From assembly GCA_024278345.1 (NCBI GenBank), contig JAJRTK010000512.1, positions 1 to 50,096 on the forward strand: a DNA stretch of 50,096 nucleotides. The letters run 5' to 3'. The position numbers and the translations under genes were made by a program. Shown here piece by piece: positions 1-24,114 of this stretch; positions within the stretch are counted from its first letter, which is position 1; the number at the start of each line of letters is the position of its first letter. The DNA is from a bacterium. Its GTDB lineage: Bacteria; CSSED10-310; JAJRTK01. Below the pieces are notes generated by a model. It was not told where the DNA came from, did not search any database, and was given only the letters and a program-made list of their open reading frames with translations.

Positions 1-25
1 CGCTGGCGGTCAGTAGCTCTTCGGA

Positions 26-1570
26 TCAAGCCCGGGTTTCCGCCTCTTTCTGACGACGTTCTCGCTTGATCCGGATCGCACGGATGACAATGATGAAAAA
101 TGCCAATCCAAGGACTACCGCAATCACCACGGAGACCGTGGCCGTCGGATCTCCCGACACCACCAGGAACGGTATCACCTCCGTTTTTCCCTCCACGTCA
201 AGGCTCAGCTCCACGATGTATTCGCCCTCTTGTGGGAAAGTTGCCGACAGCGAGTGAGGTTGTTCGTAGGGAATGACTTCCAGTGAAGAAAGCACTTCCA
301 AGCTTCGCCCGAAGGTGAAAGTCCGCAGGATCCGTACCCGAATCGGCTCCTGATAGGGCTGGCCGCTGTCCCGGTTCTTGATGTAAAAAGCCAAGTTTGC
401 TGTTTCTCCCGGTATCGGGCGACCGGGATAGCTGGTGAGCAAGATGTCATAAGGTCCAGTGGACGCTGGGTATTCCAGGATCGGGACCTGAGGATAGTTC
501 TCCTTGTAGGAGTAGTGGGGAAGCCCTAGGATGTGGTGCGCAGCGGCGGATGCTGGCAAAAGAGCCGAGACCAGGATGACGGCCGCCATCGCGGTCCGTG
601 AGCTTTTTTCGGGCGGGTGGCTCTTCTTGATCCTCGCACGGGAACGACCGGGCAAACCCGCGGTAAAGAGAAGGGCCTTTTCCGGACAATGCCGAAGGCA
701 AACACCGCAGTTATCGCACTCCATTTCGTAGGATTGGAGCACGGGATTCAGCCCCTCTTCGCAGACCGGCTCGCATTCCCGGCATCCGGTGCAAAGATTC
801 GCATCCAGCCTGATGCGAAGAAGTCGGCCGGCGCCGAGCAGGCCGTACAAAGCACCACCAGGGCAGAGGGTCCTGCACCACCAACGGCGAGAAACAAAGA
901 CTTCCACGGCAATGATGATTCCTAGAATCAGGAGCATTCCCGTGAATGCCGTTCCAAAAATCCAGGCGTGGACCAGCCGACTGATTACCGCAGGCGGGTA
1001 GATCAGCGCAAAGAATGGCAATCCCGCCACAGCCGCTACGATCAAGCCGGCTCCCAGGAAGGCATATTTGTTTCCGTGGGAAAATTCCACCTCACCGGGG
1101 GGAAGCTCGGCGAACCTCAGCAGTTTTCGCAGTTTTCCCGCAAGCTCGAACAACACGTAACCCGGGCAGATCCCACTACAGAAGACTCGCCCCAAAAGCA
1201 GCGTGACGAGAACAGGGATCAAGATAGACAAGAGCATGGGGCCGTAGAGAGTCTTCGAGGCCACGACCATTTCCGCGGCTGCCAGCGGATCGCTCAGCTC
1301 CACTCCCCAAAGGCGCATGGACCAGAGCGTTCCTTTGAAACCATCCAGGAACTGCTGTGGTTGCTCCATGGGGGCCACGGTATCGTCAATGAACCGCAAC
1401 ACCTTTCCCTGAAAACCCGCCATGAGTTGATCATCTTCCAAGGCCCGCGCAGCGCGATAATGGGCGTAGAGGCTCAAGTAGACCACAGCGATGACTACGG
1501 CCATCACCGATGCCTGGACCATCCGCCGCAGAATCTGCAACGCCAAGTGTCGAACTTGATAGGCATTCAT
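26..1570 (-). CDS. NapH-like polyferredoxin with C-terminal exported domain
   Basis: Membrane Fe-S protein of the NapH/polyferredoxin type, expected to pass quinol electrons to periplasmic partners. Seen: a membrane helix near residues 17-36, more helices at about 110-130, 168-190 and 205-226, the paired NapH signatures FCSGICP (130-136) and CRTLCPGGAL (232-241), then two 4Fe-4S motifs, CTGCRECEPVC (260-270) and CDNCGVCLRHCP (285-296). After residue 325 comes a feature not found in ordinary NapH: a hydrophobic, signal-like stretch ending in ASAAAHH, an exported domain of about 130 residues that looks like a beta-sandwich, and a final helix near 480-500 with a basic tail. The exported part resembles YtkA/FixH-like domains only loosely. 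The start is supported by a strong ribosome site, AGGAGGT at 1576-1582. It is the last gene of the operon in this window. NapH-like identity is firm; the role of the tail is unknown. Confidence 0.82.
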   Translation of the reverse strand: MNAYQVRHLALQILRRMVQASVMAVVIAVVYLSLYAHYRAARALEDDQLMAGFQGKVLRFIDDTVAPMEQPQQFLDGFKGTLWSMRLWGVELSDPLAAAEMVVASKTLYGPMLLSILIPVLVTLLLGRVFCSGICPGYVLFELAGKLRKLLRFAELPPGEVEFSHGNKYAFLGAGLIVAAVAGLPFFALIYPPAVISRLVHAWIFGTAFTGMLLILGIIIAVEVFVSRRWWCRTLCPGGALYGLLGAGRLLRIRLDANLCTGCRECEPVCEEGLNPVLQSYEMECDNCGVCLRHCPEKALLFTAGLPGRSRARIKKSHPPEKSSRTAMAAVILVSALLPASAAAHHILGLPHYSYKENYPQVPILEYPASTGPYDILLTSYPGRPIPGETANLAFYIKNRDSGQPYQEPIRVRILRTFTFGRSLEVLSSLEVIPYEQPHSLSATFPQEGEYIVELSLDVEGKTEVIPFLVVSGDPTATVSVVIAVVLGLAFFIIVIRAIRIKRERRQKEAETRA

Positions 1571-1585
1571 TCTTGACCTCCTGTC

Positions 1586-2311
1586 TCAAGCCATGACGCG
1601 GGTCGGAACAACCCTGATCGCCGGCTCTCCTCGGACCATCACACGGCAGATCTCTTCGCACATCCCGCATCCGGCACATCGAGCCTCATGGACGGTGGGA
1701 GCCAGAAAGGATCCCGGCTCCAGAGTAATGGCGCGTTCCCGGAGCGGACAAAACATGTAGCACTCGCCGCAAACGCCGCGCCGTTCCGTAGTGGCAACCA
1801 CCTCTGTAGGCTGGCGGCCAAGTTCCATGAGCAACGCCTGTTGCGCACGAATCGCCTTCGCCTTGTGAGACAGGCAGCGATCCTCGAAAAGCTCCACCGA
1901 CGCCATTCGAACCAAAGCCTTCTCTTTTCGTGGAGTGGGAATCAAGGCCGCGGTTGGACAGACCTGGGTACAGTCCATACAAAGGGTGCAGGCTTTGGCC
2001 GCGGGCTTGATGTAGGGGGTATGGTAATGCAGTCCGTTTCTTTCGGTGAAAAATTGAATGGCGCCGACTGTACAGGCATCCTGGCAACGATAACAGCGAA
2101 TGCAGGCGCTCAGGAAAGCCGCTTCCTCAAGAGCGCCAGGAGGCCGGATCAAACTCTTCGGGTTCGAGACCTTCTCTCCAAGTAGAACTGGATAGTCCAG
2201 CTCGCGACGCCTCGACAAAGCATGGACTGTTCCCAAAACCACGGCGAGGCCCGTGGCCTTGAACAGCCATCGGAAAAGCCTTGAGAACAACTGCCGTCGC
2301 GTCCAGGACAT
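1586..2311 (-). CDS. NapG-like 4Fe-4S ferredoxin, second copy
   Basis: Exported ferredoxin-type protein of 241 residues, predicted to relay electrons between the membrane polyferredoxin and the molybdoenzyme. Seen: an N-terminal WTRRQLFSRL twin-arginine-like segment followed by a hydrophobic stretch. After it come CIRCYRCQDAC, CTLCMDCTQVCP, a degenerate CGECYMFCPL group and CAGCGMCEEIC, which suggests up to four clusters as in NapG. The ATG overlaps the TGA of the preceding ferredoxin gene (TGATG), so the two are translationally coupled. Compared with its neighbour it is longer and has an insertion between the second and third cluster motifs. Two adjacent NapG-type genes are unusual for a nap locus. 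NrfC/DmsB-like electron-transfer subunits are the alternative family label. Confidence 0.8.
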   Translation of the reverse strand: MSWTRRQLFSRLFRWLFKATGLAVVLGTVHALSRRRELDYPVLLGEKVSNPKSLIRPPGALEEAAFLSACIRCYRCQDACTVGAIQFFTERNGLHYHTPYIKPAAKACTLCMDCTQVCPTAALIPTPRKEKALVRMASVELFEDRCLSHKAKAIRAQQALLMELGRQPTEVVATTERRGVCGECYMFCPLRERAITLEPGSFLAPTVHEARCAGCGMCEEICRVMVRGEPAIRVVPTRVMA

Positions 2312-2913
2312 CAGCCCAGCTCCACCTTGACCCGGATCGCTTGGGGATACCGGATACAGGCACGCTCACAAAGGCCACAACCCACACACTGATCGGCGTG
2401 AACCGTGGGCCGTTCCCACAGCCCCAGGGTGAGGGCTCGGTTGGGAAAAGGGCAGGCCCGGAAGCAAGCGCCACAGCTCCAGCTATTGTACGAATAGCAG
2501 AGCTTGAAGTCGATCTGGGCGATTCCCATGGCGACCTTCGTCTGGATCTCCTCCGCGTTCTTGTGAACGAGCCGCAGCGCACCAGACGGGCAGGCTTCAG
2601 TGCATTTGAGGGTGTCGCCCTTGACGCTCATGCAAAGCATACATGCCTGTCTGCGAGGCTGAATGACGGGAGTCATCTCTTCTCCTGGCCCAGAAGAACG
2701 CCCGGAGGGGAGAATCGCGTTGTTGGGGCAGGCATCAGCGCACCGCTGGCATCGGATGCAACGAGCCAGGAACTCGATCTCAGGCAAGGCCCCAGGCGGC
2801 CGGATGGGATGAGAGCCCGTCTTTTGGGGCACCACAAGGCCTGCTGCCGCGCCGGTCGCAAGGGTCGCGGCTCCGGTCATCAACACGTTTTTGAGGAAAT
2901 TCCTGCGATCCAC
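2311..2913 (-). CDS. NapG-like 4Fe-4S ferredoxin, first copy
   Basis: Tat-exported ferredoxin of 200 residues. The N-terminus DRRNFLKNV followed by an alanine/glycine-rich hydrophobic stretch is a good twin-arginine signal. Cluster motifs are CIRCQRCADACP, CMLCMSVKGDTLKCTEACP, CGACFRACPFP and CVGCGLCERACI, the usual four-cluster NapG layout. The chosen start is a GTG at 2913 with GAGAGG about 8 nt upstream; it places the Tat motif at the extreme N-terminus as the family requires. It follows the molybdoenzyme gene after a 148-nt gap and overlaps the next ferredoxin gene by one base. Likely function is periplasmic electron transfer to or from the Mo enzyme. Family identity is secure, the partner inferred from order. 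Confidence 0.82.
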   Translation of the reverse strand: MDRRNFLKNVLMTGAATLATGAAAGLVVPQKTGSHPIRPPGALPEIEFLARCIRCQRCADACPNNAILPSGRSSGPGEEMTPVIQPRRQACMLCMSVKGDTLKCTEACPSGALRLVHKNAEEIQTKVAMGIAQIDFKLCYSYNSWSCGACFRACPFPNRALTLGLWERPTVHADQCVGCGLCERACIRYPQAIRVKVELG

Positions 2914-3014
2914 CGCCTCGACCTCTCAGGTGGGCAAAATGCCATGGCACGTCATGCCAGCAGAGGCGAAGCGGTGGCCCCGCCGCCTCACGGTTATTCT
3001 CAGAATTGCTAGAC

Positions 3015-3047
3015 GAGGAGGGAAGATGAAAACAGCCTCCCCTCCTC
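3015..3047. other. Inverted repeat between the molybdoenzyme and ferredoxin genes
   Basis: GAGGAGGG at 3015-3022 is matched by CCCTCCTC at 3040-3047, an 8-bp perfect stem around a 17-nt loop. It sits just after the end of the molybdoenzyme gene, inside the operon. On the minus strand no T-run follows it, so it is not a standard intrinsic terminator. An mRNA-stabilising or attenuating hairpin is possible. Confidence 0.4.
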
Positions 3048-3061
3048 AATTCGGAAAACGC

Positions 3062-5794
3062 CTATACGCGTTCGATACGGGCCGCGATCTTCTTGTAATC
3101 GACCTGACCGCTCACTGGATCCCAAGCCCGGTGGCTTGTCAGGTTCACGAGCCATCGGTTCTTCCGAGGGTCGGCACTGTCGGCAACGGACAAGTTCCAG
3201 GGGCTGAAGATGTGACCGGGGGGCATTTCGCTTCGAGCAGGACGCACCATACTGTCGAGACCGACGGATACACGGCATTCGTAATGGCCTCGGCGGGTGA
3301 CGATTCGGACCTTGTCGCCATCCTCAAAGCCATAGCGTTCGGCATCTTCTTCGGCCATCTCCAGATACTGTTCGGGAACGAGCTTGAGAGTCGTTGCTCC
3401 TCGGATGGTCTTGGCTGTGTGGAAATGCTCGTAAACGATCCCAAGCGAGAGCCAGAAGGGATATTTGTCCTCTGCCTTGTGGTCTTCGATGTTCTTCTTC
3501 TTGTCGCGATAGACAGCGAGGTCTGGAAGCTCCGGAGGCAGCGCCATATCCCGCGCGAGCTCGAGGAGGCTCTTGCGGCCTTCTTTTTTTGCTGCCGCAA
3601 TGTCATCGATGATGAAAGGTCCTTCGCCAGGTCGATCCTTGTTGCCGTATTCCATGAGCTTGCCAGTGATCTCTTCGATTCTGGAGTAATCCTGCTCGCA
3701 GAGCTTGAACCTGGCTTTCCCATCTTTGTGGCGGAAGGCGCCGTAAGGTTTCCCGGCCCAGCCTTCCTGGCCAAGGTAGCGGCGCGGAGTTCCGCCGGCC
3801 TTGGCGATAACACTCGTGGGCGCCGGCCATTGGATGCCTCGAAGCTGGCGAAGCTGATCGTAGGGAGTGATTCCTTCGGCCTTTTCCACTTCCAGGATAC
3901 CGGTCAAGTCAGCATCTGATCCCTTGGAAGCCGTAAGAATATCGCGAAAGATATCTTGCGGATCGTAGGCCATCAGGCCATTGCCCATCTTGATCGTTTT
4001 CTTGTACGGGAAAATTTTATCGGCATCCAAACCAAGCTTCTTGGCAAGAACCCGCCCTTTGTCGATGGCCATATCCATGTCAGGGCGGCAGTTGGGTGGC
4101 GGGTTTTTCGTTCCGTCGCAGACATAGACCCGACGTTCCGATTGAATGTAGGTGCCTCCAGTCCATTCACCCCAGGTGGCGGCGGGAAACACGACATCGG
4201 CGTACAAGTTGTTCGGGGCGTGCCGGTAGATGTCTTGAACCACCACAAACATCTTCGTCAGGGCCGGTCGAACGAGGGTTTCGCAGTCAGCCATGTGAAT
4301 GTGGGTCGTGTACATCCAGAACATGGCCATGAGATCACCCTTCAGGGCACGTTCCATCATGCCGACGACCATGCCTGGGTTCGGCAAGGCTGTCGTCTGC
4401 GCCAGTCTCTCCCTGGGCACCCGCCAGGCATCGGCGATGTGATCCCTCCATTTTTCGTTTTTCAACGGCTGATTGAAGGGAAGGCGACCCGTGAGACCAC
4501 CCATAAGCCGTTCGCTCATGGCGTTGGGTTGGCCGGTCTGGGAGTGACTGCCACAACCAGGCCGCCCAAGGTTGCCTGTCAACAGATGCAGGTTGATGAG
4601 GCCAATGGTGTTGTGTTGGCCGTGGAGCATCTGATTGTAGCCGATGCCCCAGAAAGTCAAGACGCCTCCCTTGCCGCGTTTTCGGCCCTTGATGCTTGCC
4701 TCGGCCCACTGCTTGGCGATGGTCTCGATGAGCTTCACTGTCACGCGACCGTTATCCAGAAGATCAAGGCGCTTGACGACGGCTTTGGGAGAGTATCGTG
4801 TCTTGACTCCTTCGACGTAATCACGCCAGCCTGTCGTGTTCTTTTCGAGCCATTCCTCGGGCATGCAAGCGTCGGGATACTTGGTCAAAAGAACATGGGC
4901 GATGGCGTTGTGGTAGCTGATATCGCCGTTGAAGGTCTGGAGGTGGTAGCTGTTCCTGGGGTTGATGGCTTCAAGGCCAATGACGGTTCCCGTCCGCCGG
5001 GGATCGACGACCAGTGTGGGGATGTTCTTCTGCTTCTTGTGGTCGGCAGCCCGCCAGAAAAGCACGGGATGCGCTTCTCGGGCGTTGTGCCCCCAAAAAG
5101 TAATAAAATCCGCTTGCTCCACATCCTCATAGCTGGTGGGGGGAGCATCGGACCCGTAGGAATAGAAATACCCCGTTACGGCTGAAGTCATGCACATGCG
5201 GGCATTGGCTTCGATGGAGTTGGAGCCAATGACTCCCTTCATCAAAAGGTTTTCGATCCACTGGGCCTCCATGGTGAGCTGACCCGAGCCATTCAAACCA
5301 ACATAGTTGGGGCCTTTTTCCTTAATAATCGCCGCGATCTTCTCAGCCACGAGCTCTTCGGCTTCTTCATAGGGGACTTCCCTGAACACGTTGGCGTCGA
5401 ATCGCCCTTTCGTTGCCGAAACGTGCCCTTTGAGAGGGTCGCTCATGTCTTTCCGAACGAGCACTTTGGTCAAACGATCACGGTAGATCGGCTCGTGCGC
5501 ATTGAGGCCTTTGATGCACTGAATCCCCCGGTTTGTCGGGTGCTTCTTGTCCGGCACCATGCCGACAACCTTCCCATTTTGGACGCGAATGAGCGTTCCG
5601 CAGCCCACCCCACAATAGGGGCAAGCCGATTGGAGGAGCTCCGGTCCCTTGTTGTTCGAGGCTGGAGGTGCATCTTGCGCTTCAACGAATTCAGCGGAGA
5701 AGAGGTTGGTGGCGGCACAGGCGACACCGCTGGCGGCAGCGGCCTGCATGAACTCTCTGCGATTGAAATTGACTGGCCCTTGCCTACGTGGCAT
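3062..5794 (-). CDS. Tat-exported NapA/NasA-type molybdopterin oxidoreductase (nitrate reductase-like)
   Basis: Large Mo-bis-MGD reductase of 910 residues. Seen: Tat signal NRREFMQ (11-17) followed by an alanine-rich stretch; a 4Fe-4S site formed by Cys58, Cys61, Cys65 and Cys93; the Mo ligand candidate Cys201 in NARMCMTSAV; and the GQPNAM motif typical of nitrate reductases. The region around the Mo cysteine mixes NapA traits (NAR-CM) with NasA traits (CPYCGVGCG, SAVTGY, DAPP-SYED), and the chain is longer than E. coli NapA (about 830). Known family reaction: nitrate to nitrite; for this protein that is inference. The Tat signal puts it in the periplasm, unlike cytoplasmic NasA. Upstream lies the decahaem cytochrome, downstream two NapG-like and one NapH-like gene. 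No NapB, NapC or NapD is in the window. Formate dehydrogenase is less likely because the FDH Sec/Cys-His motif is missing. Confidence 0.8.
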   Translation of the reverse strand: MPRRQGPVNFNRREFMQAAAASGVACAATNLFSAEFVEAQDAPPASNNKGPELLQSACPYCGVGCGTLIRVQNGKVVGMVPDKKHPTNRGIQCIKGLNAHEPIYRDRLTKVLVRKDMSDPLKGHVSATKGRFDANVFREVPYEEAEELVAEKIAAIIKEKGPNYVGLNGSGQLTMEAQWIENLLMKGVIGSNSIEANARMCMTSAVTGYFYSYGSDAPPTSYEDVEQADFITFWGHNAREAHPVLFWRAADHKKQKNIPTLVVDPRRTGTVIGLEAINPRNSYHLQTFNGDISYHNAIAHVLLTKYPDACMPEEWLEKNTTGWRDYVEGVKTRYSPKAVVKRLDLLDNGRVTVKLIETIAKQWAEASIKGRKRGKGGVLTFWGIGYNQMLHGQHNTIGLINLHLLTGNLGRPGCGSHSQTGQPNAMSERLMGGLTGRLPFNQPLKNEKWRDHIADAWRVPRERLAQTTALPNPGMVVGMMERALKGDLMAMFWMYTTHIHMADCETLVRPALTKMFVVVQDIYRHAPNNLYADVVFPAATWGEWTGGTYIQSERRVYVCDGTKNPPPNCRPDMDMAIDKGRVLAKKLGLDADKIFPYKKTIKMGNGLMAYDPQDIFRDILTASKGSDADLTGILEVEKAEGITPYDQLRQLRGIQWPAPTSVIAKAGGTPRRYLGQEGWAGKPYGAFRHKDGKARFKLCEQDYSRIEEITGKLMEYGNKDRPGEGPFIIDDIAAAKKEGRKSLLELARDMALPPELPDLAVYRDKKKNIEDHKAEDKYPFWLSLGIVYEHFHTAKTIRGATTLKLVPEQYLEMAEEDAERYGFEDGDKVRIVTRRGHYECRVSVGLDSMVRPARSEMPPGHIFSPWNLSVADSADPRKNRWLVNLTSHRAWDPVSGQVDYKKIAARIERV

Positions 5795-5839
5795 GACGTT
5801 TCTCCCTTGGTTCCCCGAAAGGGGCGATGAACCAGATGC

Positions 5840-5875
5840 CCCCTAGGGGATTCGGACAAGGCGGTGAAACACCGC
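5840..5875. other. Small inverted repeats in the 115-nt gap before the molybdoenzyme gene
   Basis: Two short perfect inverted repeats lie between the decahaem cytochrome stop and the molybdoenzyme start: CCCCTAGGGG at 5840-5849 and GCGGTG-AAA-CACCGC at 5861-5875. Most other junctions in this operon are overlapping or under 20 nt, so this spacer may be a site of mRNA processing or uneven expression. No direct evidence of function. Confidence 0.35.
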
Positions 5876-5909
5876 TATTTCAGGATCCGGCACGAAGTAG
5901 GCACCCCGT

Positions 5910-8666
5910 TTACCGTCCGGTAGTGAGGCTGACGAGATCTCCTTGTTCGGGCGTTGGCTGTTCGCTCGGCCTGAATGCTTCTGGCGCCCAGGTTCGAATG
6001 AAAGCGACGATATCGTTGATCTCCTTGCCCTCTAGCTCTGAAACTCCGCCCCCCCCGCGGCCGAAGGGGCGCATGGCGGTTCCGAGCCGGCCTCGGACAA
6101 TCGTCGCTTGAAGGAAACCATCGGTAGCGGCAGCCAGGAACTCAGAATTGTTTAGAGCCGGTGCCCATCCTTCGCGACCCATGGGTCCGTGGCAGCCTGA
6201 ACATTGCGTCCCATAGAGCAGTTGACCATTGCCAAGATCCGCACCCGCGACATAGCGGTGAGGGAGCGACGTCGGTGGCCGGCGTGCCCAATCTCTGAGG
6301 TAGGCGACAACGTTGTCGATATCCTCCATGGAAAGCTGCACGTTCCCTTGGCCGCCCAAGCCCATAGCCCGCATTTCTGTACCGTCGCGGCCAAGAACGA
6401 TGGTCGCTATCAAGTAGCCGTCGGCCGCGACTCGAAGGAAATCGCGATTCGCCAGTGCGCTGCCCGTGGCGCCCTGCCCTTCGGTCCCGTGACACGAAGA
6501 GCAAGCCCCTTCATAGACTCTCTTGCCAAGGGCCGCAATCCCTGTGCCCGGGCGACTACCCTCCAGGCGTGGCCGTCCTTCGATTTGCCGGAGATAAGTC
6601 ACGATGTCTTCGATCTCTTCGGCTGTCAGCTCGACGATCCCCTGAAGACCTTTGAGGAAAGGCCGCATCTCAGTGCCATCTCGCCCGTACGAAACCCAGT
6701 GGCGCAACACTGCGTTGCTGACGGAAGCCAGAAAAACAGGATTATTGAGCTGAGGTCCGGTGCCACCTTGGGCGTTGTCCCCGTGGCAGCCTGAACAGGA
6801 GCCGCGGTAAAGCCGCGCTCCGCGCACCCAGTCCCCTCGGGCGACGAAATCCTCGAGCTTCTGTCGGCGATTGTCATTGAGGCTACGCATATAGCCGATG
6901 ATCGCCGCAACATCCTCACCCCTAAGACTCTTCCAGGATGGCATCGCCGTGCCCGGCCGTCCACTGACGATGGCGTCGTAAAGGTAGTCGTCTTCCACCA
7001 CTGCAAGGAGAGAATTGGTTCGGAGCGCTGGACCAATGCCGCCTTCTGCTTTTCGGCCGTGACAGCTCGAGCAATGGCTGCGGAAAAGGCCTTTCCCAAT
7101 ACGGATCTCCCGCCGTGGCAGAGGACCGTTGGCCAGCTTTGTCAAGACTTCTTGTTTACGGGAATTCTCAAGCTGCCAGGACCGGATGTAAGCCAGGAGG
7201 TCACTGACTTGTTGATCCCCAAGATCCTTCCAACTTGGCATGGCGGTGTTGGCCCGACCGAAGACAATAGAGTCTCGTAGGAATTCATCCGAAGCTACGG
7301 CAAGGAAGGAGGGCGAACGAAGAGCCACTCCAATCCCTCCCTGGCCGCGGTTGCCGTGGCACGCCGCACACTGGCCCCGGTAGATGACGCGGCCTTTTCG
7401 GGCATCACCATAGGCAGAGCTGATCCGATCAAGAGCGGGTACTTCCTTTTGCCATGATCGGATATAATCAATGATTCGATCAATCTCTTTGGCGTCAAGA
7501 CCTCCCTGCTCAAGGTTCCATCCACCCATGGAGGTCCCGCTCCGCCCCGTGGCGATGATGCGGCGGAGGTAATCATCGCTGGCCACAGCCAGAGTATCGG
7601 GATGGTTGAGGGAGGGGGTCATAAGCTCTCGCGGCGCATCGACGAGCGTGGGCTCAATCTCCGGATCGCGAACCGTGTTGCCAACGCCATCCTTCCCGTG
7701 GCACGCACTACAAAACATCCTGAACAGGCGCCCGCCATCGACGGATTTTCCCGTGCGCGCCGGTGGTACCGGCGTAAAGGCTGCTGGCTGGCTCTTGCGA
7801 TGCAGGCTGAGCATGTAGGTCGCCAAATCCCGAGCCTGTTCATCATTGAGTTCCAGGTCCGGCATGACGGTCTCAGGTGTGACAGCGGCAGGCTCCTTAA
7901 AATGCTCGTAGAGCCACTGAGCGACGGTCCGCTCGCCCTTGACGTTCTTAAAATCAAAATCGTGTGCGACTTTGTCGCCAACCGCTGTGATCTCAGGCCC
8001 TAGGCTTCCGCCACGTCCTCGGTACTCATGGCACCCCAAACAGCCAGATTCTAAGGTGAGCTTCTTGCCTTTCCCCACAACCTCCGCCCCGGGGACGGTC
8101 CAGTCGAGTTCCGACTGGTCCAGGGGTTCTGGTGGAGCTTCCCGGGCATAGAGGTCGTTTTGGGATCCATAGAGGTCATTTTCGTAATGGCACCGCCCGC
8201 AGCTTGTATAAATTTGATCACCCCGGAGCAATGGAGTTTCCCAGTGGGGGACGTCACCGTGGGCATCGGCTATCTTGGTTGCACGGCCCTGCCCATCGTG
8301 ACAAACGGTGCATCCGAATTTGTCCACTGGATGCTGCCGAAGCCATTTTCCCGGATGCGCTTTAAGAGGTTGTTTGGCGTTGGACATGCCTGGATGCTCA
8401 ACTCCCAGATGGCAAGTCATGCATCGATCCACGCGGCCCAGTTCGGATAGGAAGAGCTGCCGGAACTCGATCTCCATTGCCTCCGCTGACGCTCGAGTCG
8501 TGTCGCTCTTCGCTTGCGCAACGAGGGTCTCCCGATAGTTGGCCTGGATTTGTCGCCATTCGCCCGCGAGGTTTTCCTCGAAAGCGGCCAGCATCATCAA
8601 CACGAGCGAAGCAAGGGAGGAAACCAATAAAATGATCTTCAGTTGCCGAACCTGTTTGTACTCCAT
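5910..8666 (-). CDS. Membrane-anchored decahaem cytochrome c (4 + 6 haem architecture)
   Basis: Electron-transfer protein of 918 residues with ten CXXCH haem sites at about residues 82, 119, 156, 209, 319, 433, 532, 624, 722 and 822. One N-terminal helix (10-29) anchors it, leaving the rest periplasmic. The first four haems lie in an N-terminal section with several extra His residues. The last six sit in six tandem single-haem class I cytochrome c domains of roughly 92-114 residues, each with a GxGTxM-type Met ligand motif (TSMGGW, TAMPSW, TAMPSW, TEMRPF, TEMRAM, TAMRPF). It starts 7 nt after the cytochrome b gene and precedes the molybdoenzyme gene. It probably takes electrons from the Rieske/cytochrome b complex and may replace NapB/NapC as donor to the reductase. 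Haem count and layout are direct observations; the partner is inferred. Confidence 0.88.
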   Translation of the reverse strand: MEYKQVRQLKIILLVSSLASLVLMMLAAFEENLAGEWRQIQANYRETLVAQAKSDTTRASAEAMEIEFRQLFLSELGRVDRCMTCHLGVEHPGMSNAKQPLKAHPGKWLRQHPVDKFGCTVCHDGQGRATKIADAHGDVPHWETPLLRGDQIYTSCGRCHYENDLYGSQNDLYAREAPPEPLDQSELDWTVPGAEVVGKGKKLTLESGCLGCHEYRGRGGSLGPEITAVGDKVAHDFDFKNVKGERTVAQWLYEHFKEPAAVTPETVMPDLELNDEQARDLATYMLSLHRKSQPAAFTPVPPARTGKSVDGGRLFRMFCSACHGKDGVGNTVRDPEIEPTLVDAPRELMTPSLNHPDTLAVASDDYLRRIIATGRSGTSMGGWNLEQGGLDAKEIDRIIDYIRSWQKEVPALDRISSAYGDARKGRVIYRGQCAACHGNRGQGGIGVALRSPSFLAVASDEFLRDSIVFGRANTAMPSWKDLGDQQVSDLLAYIRSWQLENSRKQEVLTKLANGPLPRREIRIGKGLFRSHCSSCHGRKAEGGIGPALRTNSLLAVVEDDYLYDAIVSGRPGTAMPSWKSLRGEDVAAIIGYMRSLNDNRRQKLEDFVARGDWVRGARLYRGSCSGCHGDNAQGGTGPQLNNPVFLASVSNAVLRHWVSYGRDGTEMRPFLKGLQGIVELTAEEIEDIVTYLRQIEGRPRLEGSRPGTGIAALGKRVYEGACSSCHGTEGQGATGSALANRDFLRVAADGYLIATIVLGRDGTEMRAMGLGGQGNVQLSMEDIDNVVAYLRDWARRPPTSLPHRYVAGADLGNGQLLYGTQCSGCHGPMGREGWAPALNNSEFLAAATDGFLQATIVRGRLGTAMRPFGRGGGGVSELEGKEINDIVAFIRTWAPEAFRPSEQPTPEQGDLVSLTTGR

Positions 8667-8673
8667 GATGCCC

Positions 8674-10302
8674 TCAATGGGTCGGCCACTGGCTAGGCCA
8701 CCAGTAGAAGTCCCAGTTCGGCCCGCGGTGGACGGTGGCGAAGTAGGTCAGCACCACGAACGCGACAATGAAACAGGTGAAAAGGGCGATGGCACTCATC
8801 CGAGTCGAGCGGGTCTTCCCGATGATCCCCAACGACCAAACGATGAAAGCGGTAACGAGCACGGTTCCTGGATTTACAAACGTGATAATGATCTGCGGGA
8901 TTTCCAGAAACCAATTTCTAAGCCATCCAAAATTGACGGTAAAGGTGAGAAGCGCCACGGTGAATAAGAAGGAAAACAGGGCAGTTTGCCAAGCGACTCG
9001 GATGCCTTCTTGCCCGCAAATCCAGCGACCAGGTATTTCGCGCTCCCGATCAAGATAGGGAATCAGCGCCAACCCCAAGATGACTACCGCGGGGATCCCC
9101 ACGCCTCCCATGAAGGCCGAATAACTGACCATTTCCTGGAGTCCCAGGAAATACCACGGCGCCTTGGCGGGGTTCTCAGGGATTCCGGGGTTTGCAAGCT
9201 CCTTTAGCGGTGCGTCGAAGAAGTAGCCCAAAAAGAGCATGACTGCCGTTGTCAACATTGCCAAGGCCGCAATGGCATAGAGGGCATTGGGGTAGGCCGG
9301 AATCGTATTTCGCAGCTCCTTGCCCACGGCAGGTGTCCGCCCCTTCATAAGGGCCATGAGCCCCCAAGTCCGAGTCGATGGATCTCCCTGCTTGGGTGTC
9401 ATGGCTGTCATCGACGGGGCCTCGACATCTTTCCCCGTTGGCCGTGGGGGCACGGTCTCTGCCGGCTTGGCCAGCCCCCCGTCCTTGCGAATGCGCCATA
9501 TATGCACCGCGGCAAATAGGGTCAGAACCAGTGGCAAAACCACCACGTGGAGCACGTAGAAGCGCACCAGTGCTTCCTGCCCCACGTAGTGGGCTCCCAA
9601 CAAGAGTTCCTTCTGCATTCCCCCAATATCTAGGCTGGCTGTAATCCCCAGGGCATCCGTCAGCTCCCGTGGGGATTGAGCGATGTTGGCTCCAATGGTG
9701 CAAGCCCAAAAAGCCAGCTGATCCCAGGGCAGTAGATAACCCGTGAAACTCAGTCCGAGGGTCAAAACGAACAGAGCCATACCAATGACCCAGTTGAACT
9801 CCCGAGGTTTTTTGTAAGCTGCCGTATAAAAAACCCGCGCCATGTGGAGAAACACACATAGGACCATCCCGTGGGCCGCCCAGCGGTGGATGTTTCGGAT
9901 GAAGCGCCCGGACGGAACAACGTAGATGATATCCTTCATGGAGTCGTACGCCAGATCGACGGCCGGTTTGTAGTAAACCATCAAAAGGATGCCCGTGAAG
10001 GTCAGAATGCCAAACAGGACCAGGAGAATGATGCCAAGCCCCATCGTCGCCGAAAACTTTAGCGATCTCAGGTGGACGCGGACCGACATGACATGAAGAA
10101 AAAAATTGCTAAAGACCGTTTGGGAACGAGCCCGATCCGATGTCGGCACACCATGACGCACGACGGAATCGCGAGCGGTATCCGGTAGTGCCTTGAGGTT
10201 TGCCAGGAATGCAGGCAAACCTCCTCGTTCCTCCAGGGCCGGGGAGACCTCAACCGGTGGCTGCCTCCCGTTGATCGATTTTTCGACGGGTGTCGTCGTC
10301 AT
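8674..10302 (-). CDS. Fused b6/subunit-IV-type cytochrome b of a Rieske-cytochrome b complex
   Basis: Integral membrane cytochrome b of 542 residues that oxidises quinol and reduces quinone in a bc-type complex. Seen: haem ligand pairs His139/His153 and His252/His267. The 15-residue spacing of the second pair is the b6 rather than the mitochondrial pattern, and FYVLH...[12 protein letters not shown] is b6-like. A hydrophilic linker (about 277-335) joins it to a subunit IV-like half. The Qo-site PEWY motif reads APWY (381-384). A polar N-terminal extension of about 80 residues precedes the first helix. The ATG at 10302 is preferred over an upstream in-frame start because AGGAG lies about 8 nt before it and the longer form runs into the Rieske gene. 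It lies between Rieske and decahaem cytochrome genes, so the three probably form one complex. Confidence 0.88.
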
Positions 10303-10321
10303 GATGAGTCTCCTGAAGCCT

Positions 10322-10822
10322 TCAAACCGGAAGCCGCGTGCCGAGAGGAACGTTGATCGCGGTGTCCACAAGGAGCTGCCCGTCCGGAGACAGCCCCATC
10401 GCTATCCAATGGAGTGGCGTTGGCGCAGGTCCCTGGAGCACCTTGCCATCAGGCGCGAAAATCGAACCGTGACAGGGGCACCGAAAAATCCCGTCGGCGC
10501 TGCGGCCAGCAATACATCCCAGGTGTGTACAGATGGATGAAATGCTGTAAAGACCCTTGGCGTCATGAAAAACCCACAACCTAAGTTCCGGGAGATGGGT
10601 CACGGAACCCTTGGGATAGCGCTCGGGATGACCGATCTTTACGCGGGAATTCGATTCGGGAAAAACGGATGGCATCGGCAGCCGGAGGGAGCCAATGAGG
10701 GCGGCTCCGAAAGCTGCTACGGCGGACCAGATCGCCGCTAGTCCCAAGAAGTCTCGACGGGACGCGGGTTCCTGGAACCGGGGACTTTCTTCCAGTGCAG
10801 AGTTCCGAGACAGTTTGCTCAC
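10322..10822 (-). CDS. Rieske 2Fe-2S protein
   Basis: High-potential 2Fe-2S subunit of the bc complex, which takes the first electron from quinol. Seen: twin-arginine motif SRRDFLG (21-27) followed by one membrane helix (about 28-46), then the cluster ligands CTHLGC (98-103) and CPCHGS (115-120), the canonical pair of Rieske boxes. The length, 166 residues, is usual for bacterial Rieske proteins. The start is a GTG at 10822 whose GTGA overlaps the stop of the upstream FAD protein by 4 nt, with GGAGG 7 nt before it. A longer frame starting inside the upstream gene was not accepted. The cytochrome b gene follows after 19 nt. Confidence 0.9.
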
Positions 10823-12732
10823 GATCCGACCTCCCGCCAGGGACTTTCGTAATGGACTCTCTCCATAGTGATTGCATTGACAGGGCACCGTTCCGCGCAA
10901 AGCGCACAGCGGATGCATCGAGACTCGTCTTTGATGATGGCCGAGCCTTGGGGCAACTCTTCGGGCGCATAGCGAGCCTCGAGAAGTTCCTGTATCTGCT
11001 CCGTCGCCTCCAGTGCCTCCACGGGAACAAGCCTAAGGCAAAGCTCGGGGCAAACATCGGCGCACCCGCCACACAGGATGCAGACGTCGGAGTCAAAGAC
11101 GGTATTGACGCCGCAATCGAAACAGCGACCGGCTTCCCGCATGGCGTCGGCTGGCTCATAGCCAAGCTCTACTACCGCCGTGTGCGAGGCCTTTCTCTTA
11201 TCCGGATCGAGTGCTGGCACTGGCACGCGGCCTTGCTTTTCGTAGTCAGCTTCCCGTTCGTACCCCAATATCGGTACATGGATCATCACCTGCTCAGGTT
11301 TGATTTCTAGACCCGTCAAATAACGATGCACCGATCTGGCAGCCCGTTTGCCCGTGGCGACCGCGTGGATGAGAAGACCCGGTCCCGTGGCGATGTCGCC
11401 AGCCAAGAAAACGTCCTCGGCACTGGTGGTCAACCGCACGGGGTCCACATCGATCAAGCCTCGCTCCGTAAACCGGATATCTCCGCCGGCCGGGATGAAG
11501 CTCAAGTCAGGTTGTTGCCCAATTGCCCAAAGGACGGTGTCAGCCTCGATGGTCGTCAACCCATCTCCAAAAATAGGGGAGAACCGACCGTTTTCATCGA
11601 AGACCCGGAGTACTTCTTGGAAGAGAACGCTTTGGACCTTTCCCGCCTCGTCCAGCAAAATCTCCTTTGGACCCATGCGGTGGTGTCTGACAATGCCCTC
11701 TTCATCACCCTCGATGATTTCCACGTCATCCGCCGGCATTTCTTCAAGGCTTTCCAAGGAGACCATGTTGACTTCCCGAACACTGGGATGGCGCAAAGCG
11801 CTCCTAGCTACGTCAATGTCCACCTGGCGCACGACGGAACGGGCTACGTCATAGGCAACATTTCCACCGCCAATGACCACGATGCGCTGACCAAGCTCCG
11901 CCGGCTCGCTGAGGGCAACACTCCTCAAGAACTCAACTCCACCCAGAACCCCTTCTCCCTTCGACCCCGGAATTGACAATCGGCGGGAGTACTTCGCACC
12001 AACGGCAATGATCGTCGCGGCGAATTCGTTCCGAAGCTGTGCCAAGGAAAGGTCACCCCCAACCTGCACATTGCATTCGAAATGAACGCCTAGGGCTTCG
12101 ATCAACTCGACTTCCGCCGTCACAAGATCTCGAGGCAGGCGGTAAGAAGGAATCCCCAAGACGAGCATCCCCGCCGGAATGGGTTCCATCTCGAAAACCG
12201 TGGGGCGAAATCCCATGAGCGCAAGATCGTGGGCTGCGGCCAACCCCGCCGGCCCAGCTCCCACGATGGCAACTTTGTGGCCATCCAGCTTGGGAGGGTC
12301 GATCCGTCGAAGGAGCCTTCGAAGGCTTGTCAACTCTTCTTTGCCGCGAACTTGGCGCTGGCGTCCGAAATGTAAGACCCGCTGGAGGATGTCCAACGGC
12401 CTTTGGCTCCGGGTTTCGGGGCCGTATAGGTTTGTCACAAACCTCTTCAGTGCTCGAATCGAAACCGCTTGGTCCACGCTTCCTCGGCGGCAGGCAGCTT
12501 CGCAAGGTGCGCCGCAAACTCGTCCACAAATACTGGCGAGCGGATTGGGGCCTCGCGCGATGAGGTAAGCTGCCTCGAAGTTGCCCTGGGCGATCGCCCG
12601 TACATAGCCCCGGGCATCAGTATTGACGGGACAGGCATCGTGGCATTTGATTTGCTTGGTCCAGTAGGCTGCATCCGGAACCTCAACGCGAAGCCTCTCA
12701 CCAGCCGGCTCCGCCACCCCATTCTTGCACAT
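10819..12732 (-). CDS. GltD-like FAD/NAD(P) oxidoreductase with extra C-terminal ferredoxin domain
   Basis: Soluble flavoprotein of 637 residues from the family of glutamate synthase small subunits and NfnB-type proteins. Seen: an N-terminal Fe-S section (CHDACP at 30-35, ICGRVCGAPCEAAC at 68-81), FAD fold GAGPAG (158-163), a second nucleotide fold VVIGGGNVAYD (about 293), FAD-binding GDIATG, then two 4Fe-4S motifs, CILCGGCADVC (551-561) and CIRCALCAERCP (606-617). No GltB large subunit is nearby, so glutamate synthase is unlikely. As first gene of the operon and coupled to the Rieske gene, it may link NAD(P)H or ferredoxin to the quinone/bc complex. The ATG at 12732 has GGAG about 9 nt upstream; the longer in-frame ATG at 12828 lies close to the predicted transcription start and adds non-conserved residues. 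Confidence 0.82.
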   Translation of the reverse strand: MCKNGVAEPAGERLRVEVPDAAYWTKQIKCHDACPVNTDARGYVRAIAQGNFEAAYLIARGPNPLASICGRVCGAPCEAACRRGSVDQAVSIRALKRFVTNLYGPETRSQRPLDILQRVLHFGRQRQVRGKEELTSLRRLLRRIDPPKLDGHKVAIVGAGPAGLAAAHDLALMGFRPTVFEMEPIPAGMLVLGIPSYRLPRDLVTAEVELIEALGVHFECNVQVGGDLSLAQLRNEFAATIIAVGAKYSRRLSIPGSKGEGVLGGVEFLRSVALSEPAELGQRIVVIGGGNVAYDVARSVVRQVDIDVARSALRHPSVREVNMVSLESLEEMPADDVEIIEGDEEGIVRHHRMGPKEILLDEAGKVQSVLFQEVLRVFDENGRFSPIFGDGLTTIEADTVLWAIGQQPDLSFIPAGGDIRFTERGLIDVDPVRLTTSAEDVFLAGDIATGPGLLIHAVATGKRAARSVHRYLTGLEIKPEQVMIHVPILGYEREADYEKQGRVPVPALDPDKRKASHTAVVELGYEPADAMREAGRCFDCGVNTVFDSDVCILCGGCADVCPELCLRLVPVEALEATEQIQELLEARYAPEELPQGSAIIKDESRCIRCALCAERCPVNAITMERVHYESPWREVGS

Positions 12733-13025: not shown

Positions 13026-13472
13026 ATGGGTGTCTTACTTTCTAAAACAGCACAATACGCAATTCGAGCACTGGTCGATCTGGCGCTGCAGTCTAGCGAG
13101 CGAGCCACGCCAATCCGGACTATCGCCGAACGTACGAATATTCCTTACCCGTTCCTGGCCAAACTGGTGGTCCAGCTTGTCCAGTCTCGTCTGGTGTCGT
13201 CGCACAAAGGGCCCGGAGGGGGTATCCGCCTGATGCGGCCCGCCAGCAAGATCAGCGTCATTGAGATCATCACGGCGATGGAGGGGGTCAACGCATTTGA
13301 AGCTTGCTTCCTGGGGCTCAAGCACTGTGGCGAGGAAGATCCATGCCCCATGCACGACTATTGGGCCGGCTTCAAGAGCCAGCTCCAGTCGAAATTGGTG
13401 GAGACTTCGCTTGCGGATTTGGCTGAGCTGGAACGAAAGCAGCAAGCGATCAATGCTGGCTCGGCAGACTGA
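13026..13472 (+). CDS. Rrf2-family transcription regulator, IscR-like cluster ligands
   Basis: Dimeric winged-helix DNA-binding regulator of 148 residues. The N-terminus LLSKTAQYAIRAL and the recognition region around 25-60 (IAERTNIPYPFLAKLV), followed by KGPGGG, are classical Rrf2. Cys94, Cys101 and Cys107 with His110 (CxxxxxxCxxxxxCxxH) closely resemble the three-Cys plus His ligand set of IscR, so it probably holds an Fe-S cluster and senses redox, oxygen, NO or iron-sulfur status. It is transcribed away from the respiratory operon, and the shared region contains a palindrome, so control of that operon plus autoregulation is likely. NsrR is the alternative label. No isc or suf genes are nearby. 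Confidence 0.85.
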   Translation: MGVLLSKTAQYAIRALVDLALQSSERATPIRTIAERTNIPYPFLAKLVVQLVQSRLVSSHKGPGGGIRLMRPASKISVIEIITAMEGVNAFEACFLGLKHCGEEDPCPMHDYWAGFKSQLQSKLVETSLADLAELERKQQAINAGSAD

Positions 13473-18328: not shown

Positions 18329-21300
18329 CTAGACCCGGCGTCGGATCATGGGGGGGACCAGCGGAGTCTTCTCCGTCAGGATTCCCTCCATCTGAATGGT
18401 CCTTGCCATTCCCCGTTCCACGGCATTCACAAGGTAGGGCCGGAGGAGGTTGGGTGGCAAGATATGGTCGATGGAGCCCACACGCTGGGCTCGTTGCACC
18501 GTATGGATGGCGTCGAACTCTTCGGCCACTTCGCCGAGCTTTTCGGCGTGGACCTTTTTCCGGAGGTCGTCGAGCTGTGTTCTGAGGCGGTGTTTGTGGG
18601 GTTCCTTGGCTTCGGCAAGCTCTTGTTCCAGCCGTTTGACTCGTTCATCAAGTCCGACTCGTGCCTGCACTTCCCGAGCAAAGACGACGGCTGCCGCCGG
18701 TGCGCCGCCGATGACGGAGGCATAGCTTCCTTCCAAGGCGGCGACTTCGACACTTTCGTTCAGGGCCTTGGAAAAGACGACGTAGGCGCCGCCGTGGTAT
18801 CTGGAAATCACGCAAAAGACGACGGGGCCGCGGAAGTTGACGATGGCCCTGCCGATTTCGGCTCCGTGCTCCAACTGAAGCTCTCGCATGGATTCCGGCG
18901 AGCCGTCGAAACCGGACAGGTTTGCCAGGATGACGACGGGCCGAAGCCCGCTAGAGGAGTTGATGGCTCGTGCGACCTTCTTTGAAGAGAGGGGAAAGAG
19001 AGTTCCCGCGGTCCAGCGGTCAGGACCATCGGCCGGTGCGTAGCCAAGGCGGCTGAGGTTTTTCGATTCGATCCCTATGAGGCAGATGGAGCGTCCTCCA
19101 AGCCTTGCCGACCAGACCACGGCGGTTTCGGCATCGCGCATGGCGGCCCAACGTTCCATGGGCGTGCAGTCCTGATCGACCACGGAGGCCATGACGGCCC
19201 GGATCTCGAAAGGCCGCTTGCGGGCGGGGTTCTTCTTCGCTGAGAAGATATCGGCCACTTGTTCGAATTCGGCTGTCCCATGAAGGTGGACTCCGGCATC
19301 CCGCTCGGTGGGATCGGCTGTTTCAAAGCGCCTTGGAAATCTTTCCCCGGAAGCCACGTAGGTATACTCGTAATGGCGGAAGAGGAGGTGGCAGGCGTTG
19401 GTGAAATCTTCCGCCCAAAACTGGGCCTGGCCATTGGGTCCCATGATGTGCTCGTATCCGCCGATCCCCTGATTCGTGTCGGCGGAGACTCCGCCGGAGT
19501 AGTCCAAGGCCTTCTTGCCCGTGAGGAGCATGGCCCCTTCGGGGATCATGATCAAGATTCCCCGGGTGTGCATAAGCATGGTGGCTTCGGCGTTCCAGTA
19601 GGACTGTGCCCCCACATTGACGGCATGGGCGACAATATTGACTTCGCCGCCATCGCGGGTGAATTCGATGAGCCGCCGGAGGACGCGGGCAGTCCAGTCC
19701 AGGTTCTCCGTGCCGCTATCCATGGCGATCTTGGCCCCTGCTGAGACGGAGAACCATTCTACGGGTACGCCGAGATTTTGAGCCAGATCGATAGCTTGAA
19801 TAATCCGGCGGCACTCGGGTTCCGCCAAGGATCCCATGGACTTGCTGGGGTCCCCAAGGATCACCACGCGAGTGATTCCGTCGGGGTAGCGTTTGGTGAA
19901 GTTTTTCAACAGGCCCACAACCAGATTGGCTTCATTGAGGCCATAGGGGCGCTGTACCGGAACGAGCCGCTGAGCGTAGTCGAGATCGTATTCCACAAAT
20001 TCGCCGGGCGGGAATTCTGAACGGACGCCTTCCTTGGCTGGCGTGAGCATCCGGATGATTTCGTAGGGATAGATGAGCCCCCGCTGGCGCATGCGGACAA
20101 CTTTCCGCTCGTACTCGGAAAGGGGGCGAATGAGCTCATGCGTAGGCTCGTCGATATGGAGGACCAGTTGGGCTCCGGTGGGATTGGACATCCCGAGGAT
20201 CTTGCTCCGCTCGACGCCCAGTTCCTTGTCGAGAATACGGACGTGCATGGTGATCTTTTCCAAGCCGAGCTCGGCGGTGGAAGCGCCGACGCGGCGAATG
20301 ACTGTCCTGAGATCTTCGGGTTCGAGTTCTAGTCTGGGCCAGACGTAGAGGATCACGCGATTCCAGTGGAGCCGCTTCCTGAGGGTGCGATGGGATTGGA
20401 ACATCCGGATGCCAGCCAACGCCTCGGAGACGGTCCTTTCCAGGTAGGGAAGCTGCACGACGTTCCCGCGGGAATCGCGGACGGGCGTGAGATCCCAGAC
20501 CTCGGCGAAGGCGAAGATCCTTTCGTCCCTGGGATTGTCCCGGGCTACGCCGTGGAAGAGATAGAGGTCTTCCACCGAGGGCAGGCGCTGGATCTTGAAG
20601 TTCCCCAGGCGCCAGAGCTCCAGGCGTTTGCCCATCATGGGGTGAAGTCCCCGATAGAGCTTTTCTTCCCAGTATCCCTTGTCCGAGGGCCGGAAAGTGT
20701 ATTGCTCCATCCCCTCGCGGCCATCGTGGAGGCTAGGGCCGGCGACGGCGAAGAAGACGCGGCGAAGTGGTTCGGGGAAGGACTCGTCCAAGAGCTTGGT
20801 CAGCTCTTTGGAGCGTCGCTCCTGATCGCAATGACCGCCCTCGTCCCAGACGTAAAAATCGATGAGCACCTGCCGCTCATCCGCGATGCTCTCCGCGAGG
20901 TCGCGGAGAGCGCGAGCCGCCTGGGGAAGCTCCTGATAGCCCACGTGGAGTGACAAGAGCAAGAGCTGCCGGTCGTCGTATTCGTATTCGGCCGTTCCAA
21001 CGCTCCATCGACCGGCGGAGTAGAAACGGATGTTTTCCAGGTTCCGGATGCAATAGTAACGGCGCATGATCACTTCGAGCATCCGATCCCGCATCTCGGG
21101 GGAGGCCTGGTGGAATCGGCGGCTGAAGACGCCAACGATCTGTTGCGGACAATCGACGAGCTGCTGGAGGAGGCTTTCGCGTTCGTCATCGGATGGGCAG
21201 GCGATGAGGCGTTGGAGGTGGCTTTCCATTCGGGCGAAAGTTTCCTGACGCACTTCGTCGAAGAGGGGTTGCTCGAAAATGCGGTAGCGCACTTCTCGCG

Positions 21301-23944: not shown

Positions 23945-24114
23945 CCCGGTCCCTCGATTCCGCCCCAGATTCGACACACTCTCCGCCAGTCTGTAGCGGT
24001 GGCTGATTCAACGGTCTCACCGGTCTCCTCGCCGGTAGAAAGACCTATTAACACGATGGCGGGACTTGCGTCACCCGCAGAGGGGATAATCCCGTTTTCG
24101 GCGGGCCACGCCGC

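Follow-up and report, generated by a model that had tools for sequence, protein, structure and literature searches.

A Rieske/cytochrome b operon with a GltD-like subunit and a decahaem cytochrome joined to a NapA-like molybdoenzyme: a candidate quinol-oxidising respiratory system

The operon and its parts

The window, i.e. the whole stretch of DNA analysed here, is the complete contig JAJRTK010000512.1 (50,096 bases) from a bacterial metagenome-assembled genome (MAG) of 6.06 Mb, 550 contigs and 88% completeness. Its minus strand carries, from position 12732 down to 26, eight codirectional genes in the order FAD–Rieske–cytochrome b–decahaem c–molybdenum (Mo) enzyme–NapG–NapG–NapH. We consider it reasonably probable from the comparisons reported below that this operon encodes a dedicated respiratory system between quinol and a periplasmic acceptor, in which a bc-type complex would pass electrons through the decahaem cytochrome to the Mo enzyme, with nitrate as the most likely acceptor. 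In the following, FAD denotes the GltD-like subunit, R and b the Rieske protein and cytochrome b, C10 the decahaem cytochrome and MO the Mo enzyme. The parts are as follows.

10819..12732, minus strand: GltD/NfnL-like FAD and NAD(P) oxidoreductase that carries an Fe-S cluster region at each terminus; 29 homologues share 17 invariant Cys
10322..10822, minus strand: Rieske [2Fe-2S] protein with a Tat-type RR signal/anchor and a GTG start
8674..10302, minus strand: fused cytochrome b (b6 part plus subunit IV part) with a 13/14 spacing of the b-haem His and the Qo motif KAPWY
5910..8666, minus strand: decahaem c-type cytochrome (4 + 6 haems) with a membrane anchor at the N-terminus
7767..8666, minus strand: tetrahaem N-terminal half of the decahaem cytochrome; its homologues are cytochromes from Nar-linked Rieske/cytochrome b complexes
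5955..7754, minus strand: hexahaem C-terminal half of the decahaem cytochrome; its full-length homologue is the free six-haem cytochrome at Mo loci lacking bc genes
3062..5794, minus strand: NapA-like Mo-bisPGD oxidoreductase, predicted to be Tat-exported, Mo ligand Cys201
2311..2913, minus strand: NapG-like ferredoxin 1, predicted to be Tat-exported
1586..2311, minus strand: NapG-like ferredoxin 2, predicted to be Tat-exported
26..1570, minus strand: NapH-like membrane polyferredoxin with an extra C-terminal beta-sandwich domain and a transmembrane helix

Several of these genes are tightly packed. The stop codon of the FAD gene and the GTG start of the Rieske gene (10822) share a 4-nt overlap (GTGA), the cytochrome b gene starts with the ATG at 10302 just downstream of AGGAG, and the two NapG genes overlap in the sequence TGATG. 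Directly past NapH, the operon is broken off at position 26 by the end of the contig. In relatives, the gene after NapH encodes a NapH-like membrane protein of approximately 700 aa with a YHS domain, and a further NapG-like protein, the third, frequently comes next. In the MAG of the window, contig C143 carries a YHS/NapH-like gene (690 aa) that begins at the contig edge and, beyond it, a NapG-like gene (212 aa), with a gene for a beta-helix protein in between. Judged by this arrangement, the operon runs on from the window into C143; the link rests on the synteny in relatives, because the ends of the two contigs have no common stretch of at least 12 nt.

The decahaem cytochrome as a fusion of two partners

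In our ranking, the strongest evidence for an electron path from the bc part through C10 to the Mo enzyme comes from the decahaem cytochrome itself. It contains exactly ten CxxCH motifs, as does every complete homologue found, which are arranged as four haems followed by six single-haem class I c domains. On account of this architecture, an outer-membrane wire of the MtrA/DmsE type was rejected for this protein. Residues 1-300, comprising four haems and the membrane anchor, match the N-terminus of seven-haem cytochromes from Nar-linked Rieske/cytochrome b operons (approximately 31%, E 1e-31). Residues 305-904, which hold the remaining six haems, align over their full length to the free hexahaem cytochrome of Mo loci without bc genes (type B, see below; 42-45%, E 1e-143 to 1e-165), and the N-terminal half has no real match to this free cytochrome. 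Because each half matches the cytochrome of its own side only, C10 is a natural fusion of a bc-linked tetrahaem with a Mo-linked hexahaem cytochrome, and such a joining of the two sides is a direct argument for an electron path from bc via the haems to Mo.

Conservation of the gene order and apparent exchange of the input module

A scan with one genome per species yielded 60 loci with Mo enzymes of 68-82% identity. Their records are mostly labelled Planctomycetota; Elusimicrobiota, Wallbacteria, Deltaproteobacteria, Verrucomicrobia, Latescibacterota and Hydrogenedentota are found as well. At least 24 other loci, mainly from Planctomycetota, possess all eight genes in identical order and on the same strand, therefore, the arrangement is not a product of chance. 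The bc genes are located upstream of the Mo gene in 37 of 64 loci examined, and many of the others end at contig edges. Furthermore, pairwise distances of MO correlated with those of its partners, with r values of 0.95 for NapH, 0.94 for C10, 0.86 for NapG1, 0.82 for cytochrome b, 0.81 for Rieske and 0.62 for FAD (0 of 2000 permutations each), which also contain shared genome ancestry. Among 294 evenly sampled Planctomycetota genomes, the Mo enzyme was present in 10, and a close FAD-type complex accompanied it in four of these.

The partners of the Mo gene differ between loci. Type A loci, including the window, have FAD-R-b-C10 upstream of the Mo gene. In type B loci (L050, L069, L148, L149, L150; also L061, a cut locus grouped here) bc genes are missing, and the Mo gene is preceded by no more than a free cytochrome with two to six haems. 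Type C loci (L055, L059, L063, L064, L068, L073, L083) lack C10 and have downstream ActA/ActB/ActC-like genes with QrcA/QrcB/QrcC and NrfD as best family matches, which identifies their partner, by family assignment, as an alternative-complex-III/Qrc-like complex. Nap clusters with an NrfD-type complex have been noted before in OFTM MAGs (PMC10732223). Constant across the three types is the Mo–NapG–NapH–YHS core. Moreover, two loci (L040, L070) combine a typical C10 and Mo enzyme with a cytochrome b that groups with Nar-linked complexes and with divergent FAD and Rieske proteins; because of this combination, the FAD-Rieske-b input module looks exchangeable, with C10 staying with the Mo side. 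As a separate observation, locus L080 (10001-21941) has a Mo enzyme gene followed by genes for Nar/Nxr-like alpha and beta subunits and then by NapG/NapH genes.

These data also bear on the original prediction, which was made from the letters of the window alone. Its eight-gene order and cofactor motifs were borne out, all on the minus strand, and the search it proposed for the same order elsewhere returned the loci given above. Its expectation that the Mo gene is conserved together with the bc genes was right for those loci with the full order; in some lineages an alternative-complex-III-like complex or a lone hexahaem cytochrome is found instead.

The Rieske/cytochrome b part and its FAD subunit

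The bc part has the features of a complete Rieske/cytochrome b core, namely the Rieske motifs, four b-haem His and a Qo PxWY-like motif. The Rieske motifs CxHxGC and CPCHGS are present, their ligand residues are conserved in 35 of 35 sequences, and the tuning positions are Ser and Phe as in Kustd1480, for which a potential of +335 mV was measured (PMC12954380). In cytochrome b, the haem ligands His162/176 and His275/290 as well as PWY (KAPWY in the window) occur in 33 of 33 sequences. The FAD subunit is of a cytoplasmic type and has FAD and NAD(P) domains.

With the anammox-type complexes the operon shares the FAD/NAD(P) subunit and the His/Arg pair of the proposed interface haem; the Cys for the c_N haem and a separate subunit IV are absent. 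In detail, His93 (33/33) and Arg295 (32/33), numbered on the 565-aa cytochrome b open reading frame (ORF), align to His43 and Arg247 of the Kuste4571-like protein, which are the proposed interface b haem residues. In the anammox reference used here, His43, Arg247 and Arg511 of the FAD partner agree with the published numbering. The position of the Cys that covalently binds the c_N haem is Gly in 32 of 33 sequences, the subunit IV part is fused to cytochrome b, and Arg511 of the anammox FAD subunit corresponds to Gly in the window. Judged from these residues and the GltD-like FAD subunit, the bc part is a relative of those anammox Rieske/cytochrome b complexes that bear an NAD(P) oxidoreductase and for which NAD(P)+ reduction has been proposed (PMC12954380). 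With the GltD-like subunit, a plain Q-cycle in an energy-conserving bc complex, as originally predicted, is only one option.

The Mo enzyme and its substrate

The sequence of the Mo protein contains a Tat-like RR signal, the cluster motif CPYCGVGC and the Mo-ligand motif CMTSAV. Its best sequence relatives are NapA proteins (E. coli 2nya, D. desulfuricans 2jio), and its best fold match is 2v45 with a TM of 0.79 by target length, obtained with a mediocre AlphaFold model (pLDDT 66.6) that served the fold search only. The scores are far below the NapA equivalog cut-offs (TIGR01706, 288.7 vs 930.55 bits; NF010055, 307.8 vs 904). The phylogeny that the original prediction had called for places the enzyme near NapA, yet in a clade of its own (100/100) that is only weakly supported as sister to NapA (87/60). 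In all 27 homologues, the Cys-Met ligand motif, a conserved Gln and the equivalent of Arg354 are kept as in nitrate reductases. Changes were found in the second shell: the Glu after the Arg is Leu (27/27), the pterin-contacting Arg720 is Ile (26/27) and Trp725 is Phe (27/27). Because the former residues are kept and second-shell residues are replaced, nitrate is the likely rather than the certain substrate.

The context of the loci favours N-oxides as substrates, as far as neighbouring genes can be read in this way. An octahaem HAO-family gene is located directly beside the operon in genome G049, together with a NIR_SIR-domain gene, and another one separates the Mo gene from NapG1 in locus L065 (8402-10094). 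HAO-family genes were detected in 22 of 27 carriers compared to 34% of the 294 Planctomycetota. Furthermore, seven loci have a hemerythrin gene with a weak match to NO-damage repair proteins. A Cu-nitrite reductase, considered for the reaction that would follow nitrate reduction, gave no match over the cut-off.

NapG/NapH-like proteins and absent Nap partners

NapG and NapH are the best family matches of the last three proteins, with scores under the cut-offs (TIGR00397, 104.1 and 81.9 vs 178.85; TIGR02163, 129.8 vs 213.05). NapB was found neither in the window's genome nor in 23 other non-Elusimicrobiota carriers tested, and only two of 28 carriers have it, both Elusimicrobiota. NapD is absent from 25 of 27 carriers, including the window's genome, and present in the other two. 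A NapB or NapC encoded elsewhere in the genome, which according to the original prediction would have spoken against its electron path, was not found as partner; a single protein of the window's genome matches the NapC family, being 717 aa long with 16 haems and encoded at another Rieske/cytochrome b locus, and there is no dedicated NapC.

The NapG/NapH-like set, which is encoded with the Mo gene in all locus types, more likely matures or reactivates the Mo enzyme than serves as main quinol dehydrogenase, and it could also be a second quinol input. A maturation/reactivation role has been suggested for NapG/H in C. jejuni (PMC6195509). NapH has an extra domain at residues of approximately 365-472 (window 155-478, minus strand), predicted to be a periplasmic beta-sandwich and preceded by an invariant His pair; its fold weakly resembles that of CrdA, a copper protein (E 9e-4), which is not relied on. 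Together with the YHS domain of the next gene, the beta-sandwich hints at copper or other metal handling.

Neighbouring genes and related operons

A divergent gene for an Rrf2-family regulator (IscR/NsrR-like; 13026..13472, plus strand) adjoins the operon, and Rrf2-type genes are close to the cluster in nine further loci. Elsewhere in the window, an 1882-aa ORF (18329-23977) was read by eye as fused biotin carboxylase, biotin carrier and carboxyltransferase of the acyl-CoA carboxylase type, and another one (35490-37235) as a sulfate adenylyltransferase-APS kinase fusion.

Among related FAD-R/b operons of Planctomycetota, four encode Nar/Nxr-like enzymes (L135, L136, L141, L143) and two encode HAO-like octahaem proteins (L134, L140). 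The window's genome holds at least two further R/b sets. One (L157, G000:C183:835-8381) is a FAD-Rieske-b6-subunit IV-seven-haem operon directly before CcoN/CcoO-like cbb3 oxidase genes, which were named by eye. Locus L161 (G000:C263:8234-13446) has genes for a Rieske protein, a cytochrome b, a nine-haem and a 16-haem cytochrome with a NapC-like N-terminus in a row, an unusual quinol-to-multihaem route. MqnA/D-type genes, looked for as markers of the quinone type, were not detected in the window's genome and were present in eight of eight other carriers tested.

Proposed electron path and alternatives

According to our proposal, quinol would be oxidised at the Qo site, and the first electron would pass from the Rieske protein to the tetrahaem half, the hexahaem half and then the [4Fe-4S] cluster and Mo, where most likely nitrate would be reduced to nitrite in the periplasm. 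We infer this route from the fusion and its conservation; the absence of NapB, NapC and NapD supports it as well, in line with the path originally predicted. Also in favour are MoCo genes close to the cluster in several loci, the other FAD-R/b set of this genome beside cbb3-oxidase-like genes, and the experimental precedent for bc-dependent Nap (PMC6195509). The second electron would move over the b haems towards the cytoplasmic side and then either complete a Q-cycle or reduce NAD(P)+ at the FAD subunit. The nitrite would be passed on to octahaem HAO-family reductases.

Several points weigh against this proposal. Mo clusters without bc genes exist. The Mo enzyme forms a clade outside NapA (100/100) with changed second-shell residues, and its substrate could differ. 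The HAO co-occurrence is weak: in the Planctomycetota sample it was 7 of 10 Mo carriers vs 94 of 284 others (p 0.035, without correction for kinship). Moreover, with a MAG that is 88% complete, gene absences in the window's genome are provisional.

A more specific version is quinol bifurcation, in which nitrate would take the high-potential electron via the ten-haem wire and thereby pay for NAD(P)+ reduction at the FAD subunit. We put it forward tentatively, as clearly less probable than the electron path itself. In the sister operons, the high-potential acceptor is perhaps O2 or others.

Among the alternatives, a different reaction of the Mo enzyme survives best, although we regard it as rather unlikely. 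The enzyme would then use a different oxyanion or run in the opposite direction, for instance as nitrite oxidase or as selenate/chlorate reductase. This would agree with the separate clade and the altered second-shell residues, and a low-efficiency turnover of chlorate and perchlorate is known for Campylobacter NapA (PMC12769810). However, the Cys-Met ligand motif and the Arg are kept as in nitrate reductases, NapA is the best match in fold and sequence, and in two loci octahaem HAO-family genes are in or beside the operon.

Unlikely, and a little more so, is that the actual quinol dehydrogenase of the Mo enzyme consists of the NapGH-like proteins plus the YHS/NapH-like protein and the third NapG-like one, and that bc and decahaem proteins serve another acceptor or form an auxiliary branch. 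All locus types, including those lacking bc genes, have the G/H genes with the Mo gene, as well as the YHS/NapH-like gene wherever the contig is long enough, and the distances of H and G1 track those of MO (0.95 and 0.86). Nevertheless, nitrate respiration of C. jejuni requires Qcr despite the presence of NapGH (PMC6195509). Furthermore, C10 tracks MO equally (0.94), and its hexahaem half is the Mo-linked cytochrome.

The FAD subunit might also work in the other direction, oxidising NAD(P)H and feeding the b haems of a reductase that depends on both NAD(P)H and quinol, since it has FAD and NAD(P) domains with 17 invariant cluster Cys and GltD-family enzymes are reversible in principle. But, the published anammox proposal is NAD(P)+ reduction (PMC12954380), the direction cannot be read from a sequence, and we judge this option to be improbable.

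Significance

Periplasmic nitrate reduction is usually regarded as non-energy-conserving. The statement in the original prediction that Q-cycle pumping is foreign to classical Nap systems is out of date considering C. jejuni QcrABC, Caldithrix and haloarchaeal Nar. Respiration with Nap driven by a bc complex is already known, being shown for Campylobacter and proposed for Caldithrix. Our literature search, with most subscription journals outside its coverage, found no description of a FAD–R–b–decahaem–Mo operon. What the window and its relatives add is an entire quinol-oxidising complex built into the reductase operon and joined to it by a fused cytochrome, in many uncultured Planctomycetota and several other phyla. 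This offers a testable route by which energy could be conserved from, or NAD(P)H be made with, periplasmic nitrate; if bifurcation were true, respiratory nitrate reduction would make NAD(P)H directly from quinol. The FAD–Rieske–cytochrome b unit is found with NapA-like enzymes, Nar/Nxr-like enzymes and HAO-type proteins as well as beside a cbb3-like oxidase, so that one exchangeable module may set the mode of energy conservation or of NAD(P)H production in its carriers. The anammox proposal for NAD(P)H formation thereby gains a large comparative data set.

Comparison with known systems

In C. jejuni, Nap and Tor respiration require QcrABC, which is held to make this respiration electrogenic (PMC6195509). 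As proposed for the window, a bc-type complex sends menaquinol electrons to periplasmic Nap there, with NapC absent and NapGH present. In contrast, qcr forms a separate operon, NapA and NapB are normal, and there is neither a FAD subunit nor a decahaem fusion. A further comparison is with Caldithrix abyssi, whose nap locus contains Rieske and cytochrome b genes with NapG/NapH, an adjacent eHao octahaem gene and no NapB/NapC, and for which bc-driven Nap respiration was proposed (PMC5317091). However, tetrahaem NapM takes the place of the decahaem protein and no FAD subunit is described; its Mo enzyme is classed as Nap in the same study and was set beside the window enzyme by description only.

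The Kuenenia complexes Kustd1480-1485 and Kuste4569-4574 (PMC12954380) resemble the input side of our operon, combining a FAD/Fe-S NAD(P) oxidoreductase, a Rieske protein, a b6-like cytochrome b and multihaem c; their His43/Arg247 for the proposed interface haem are kept in the window, as are the Rieske Ser/Phe of Kustd1480. The window differs in the cytochrome b–subunit IV fusion, the missing c_N Cys, another multihaem protein and the Mo enzyme, which replaces the HAO-like octahaem protein. In haloarchaea and Methanoperedens, Rieske/cytochrome b is linked to an outward-facing nitrate reductase as well (PMC4683180), which is of the Nar type, with no FAD subunit or decahaem fusion described. 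Finally, the monomeric NapA of Desulfovibrio desulfuricans, which occurs with NapM and NapG/NapH, is the closest in fold (2v45/2jio) and shares the absence of NapB and the NapGH-type partners. It is a smaller enzyme with approximately 26% identity in the fold alignment, and its cluster is without a bc complex, the part which in the window is built into the operon.

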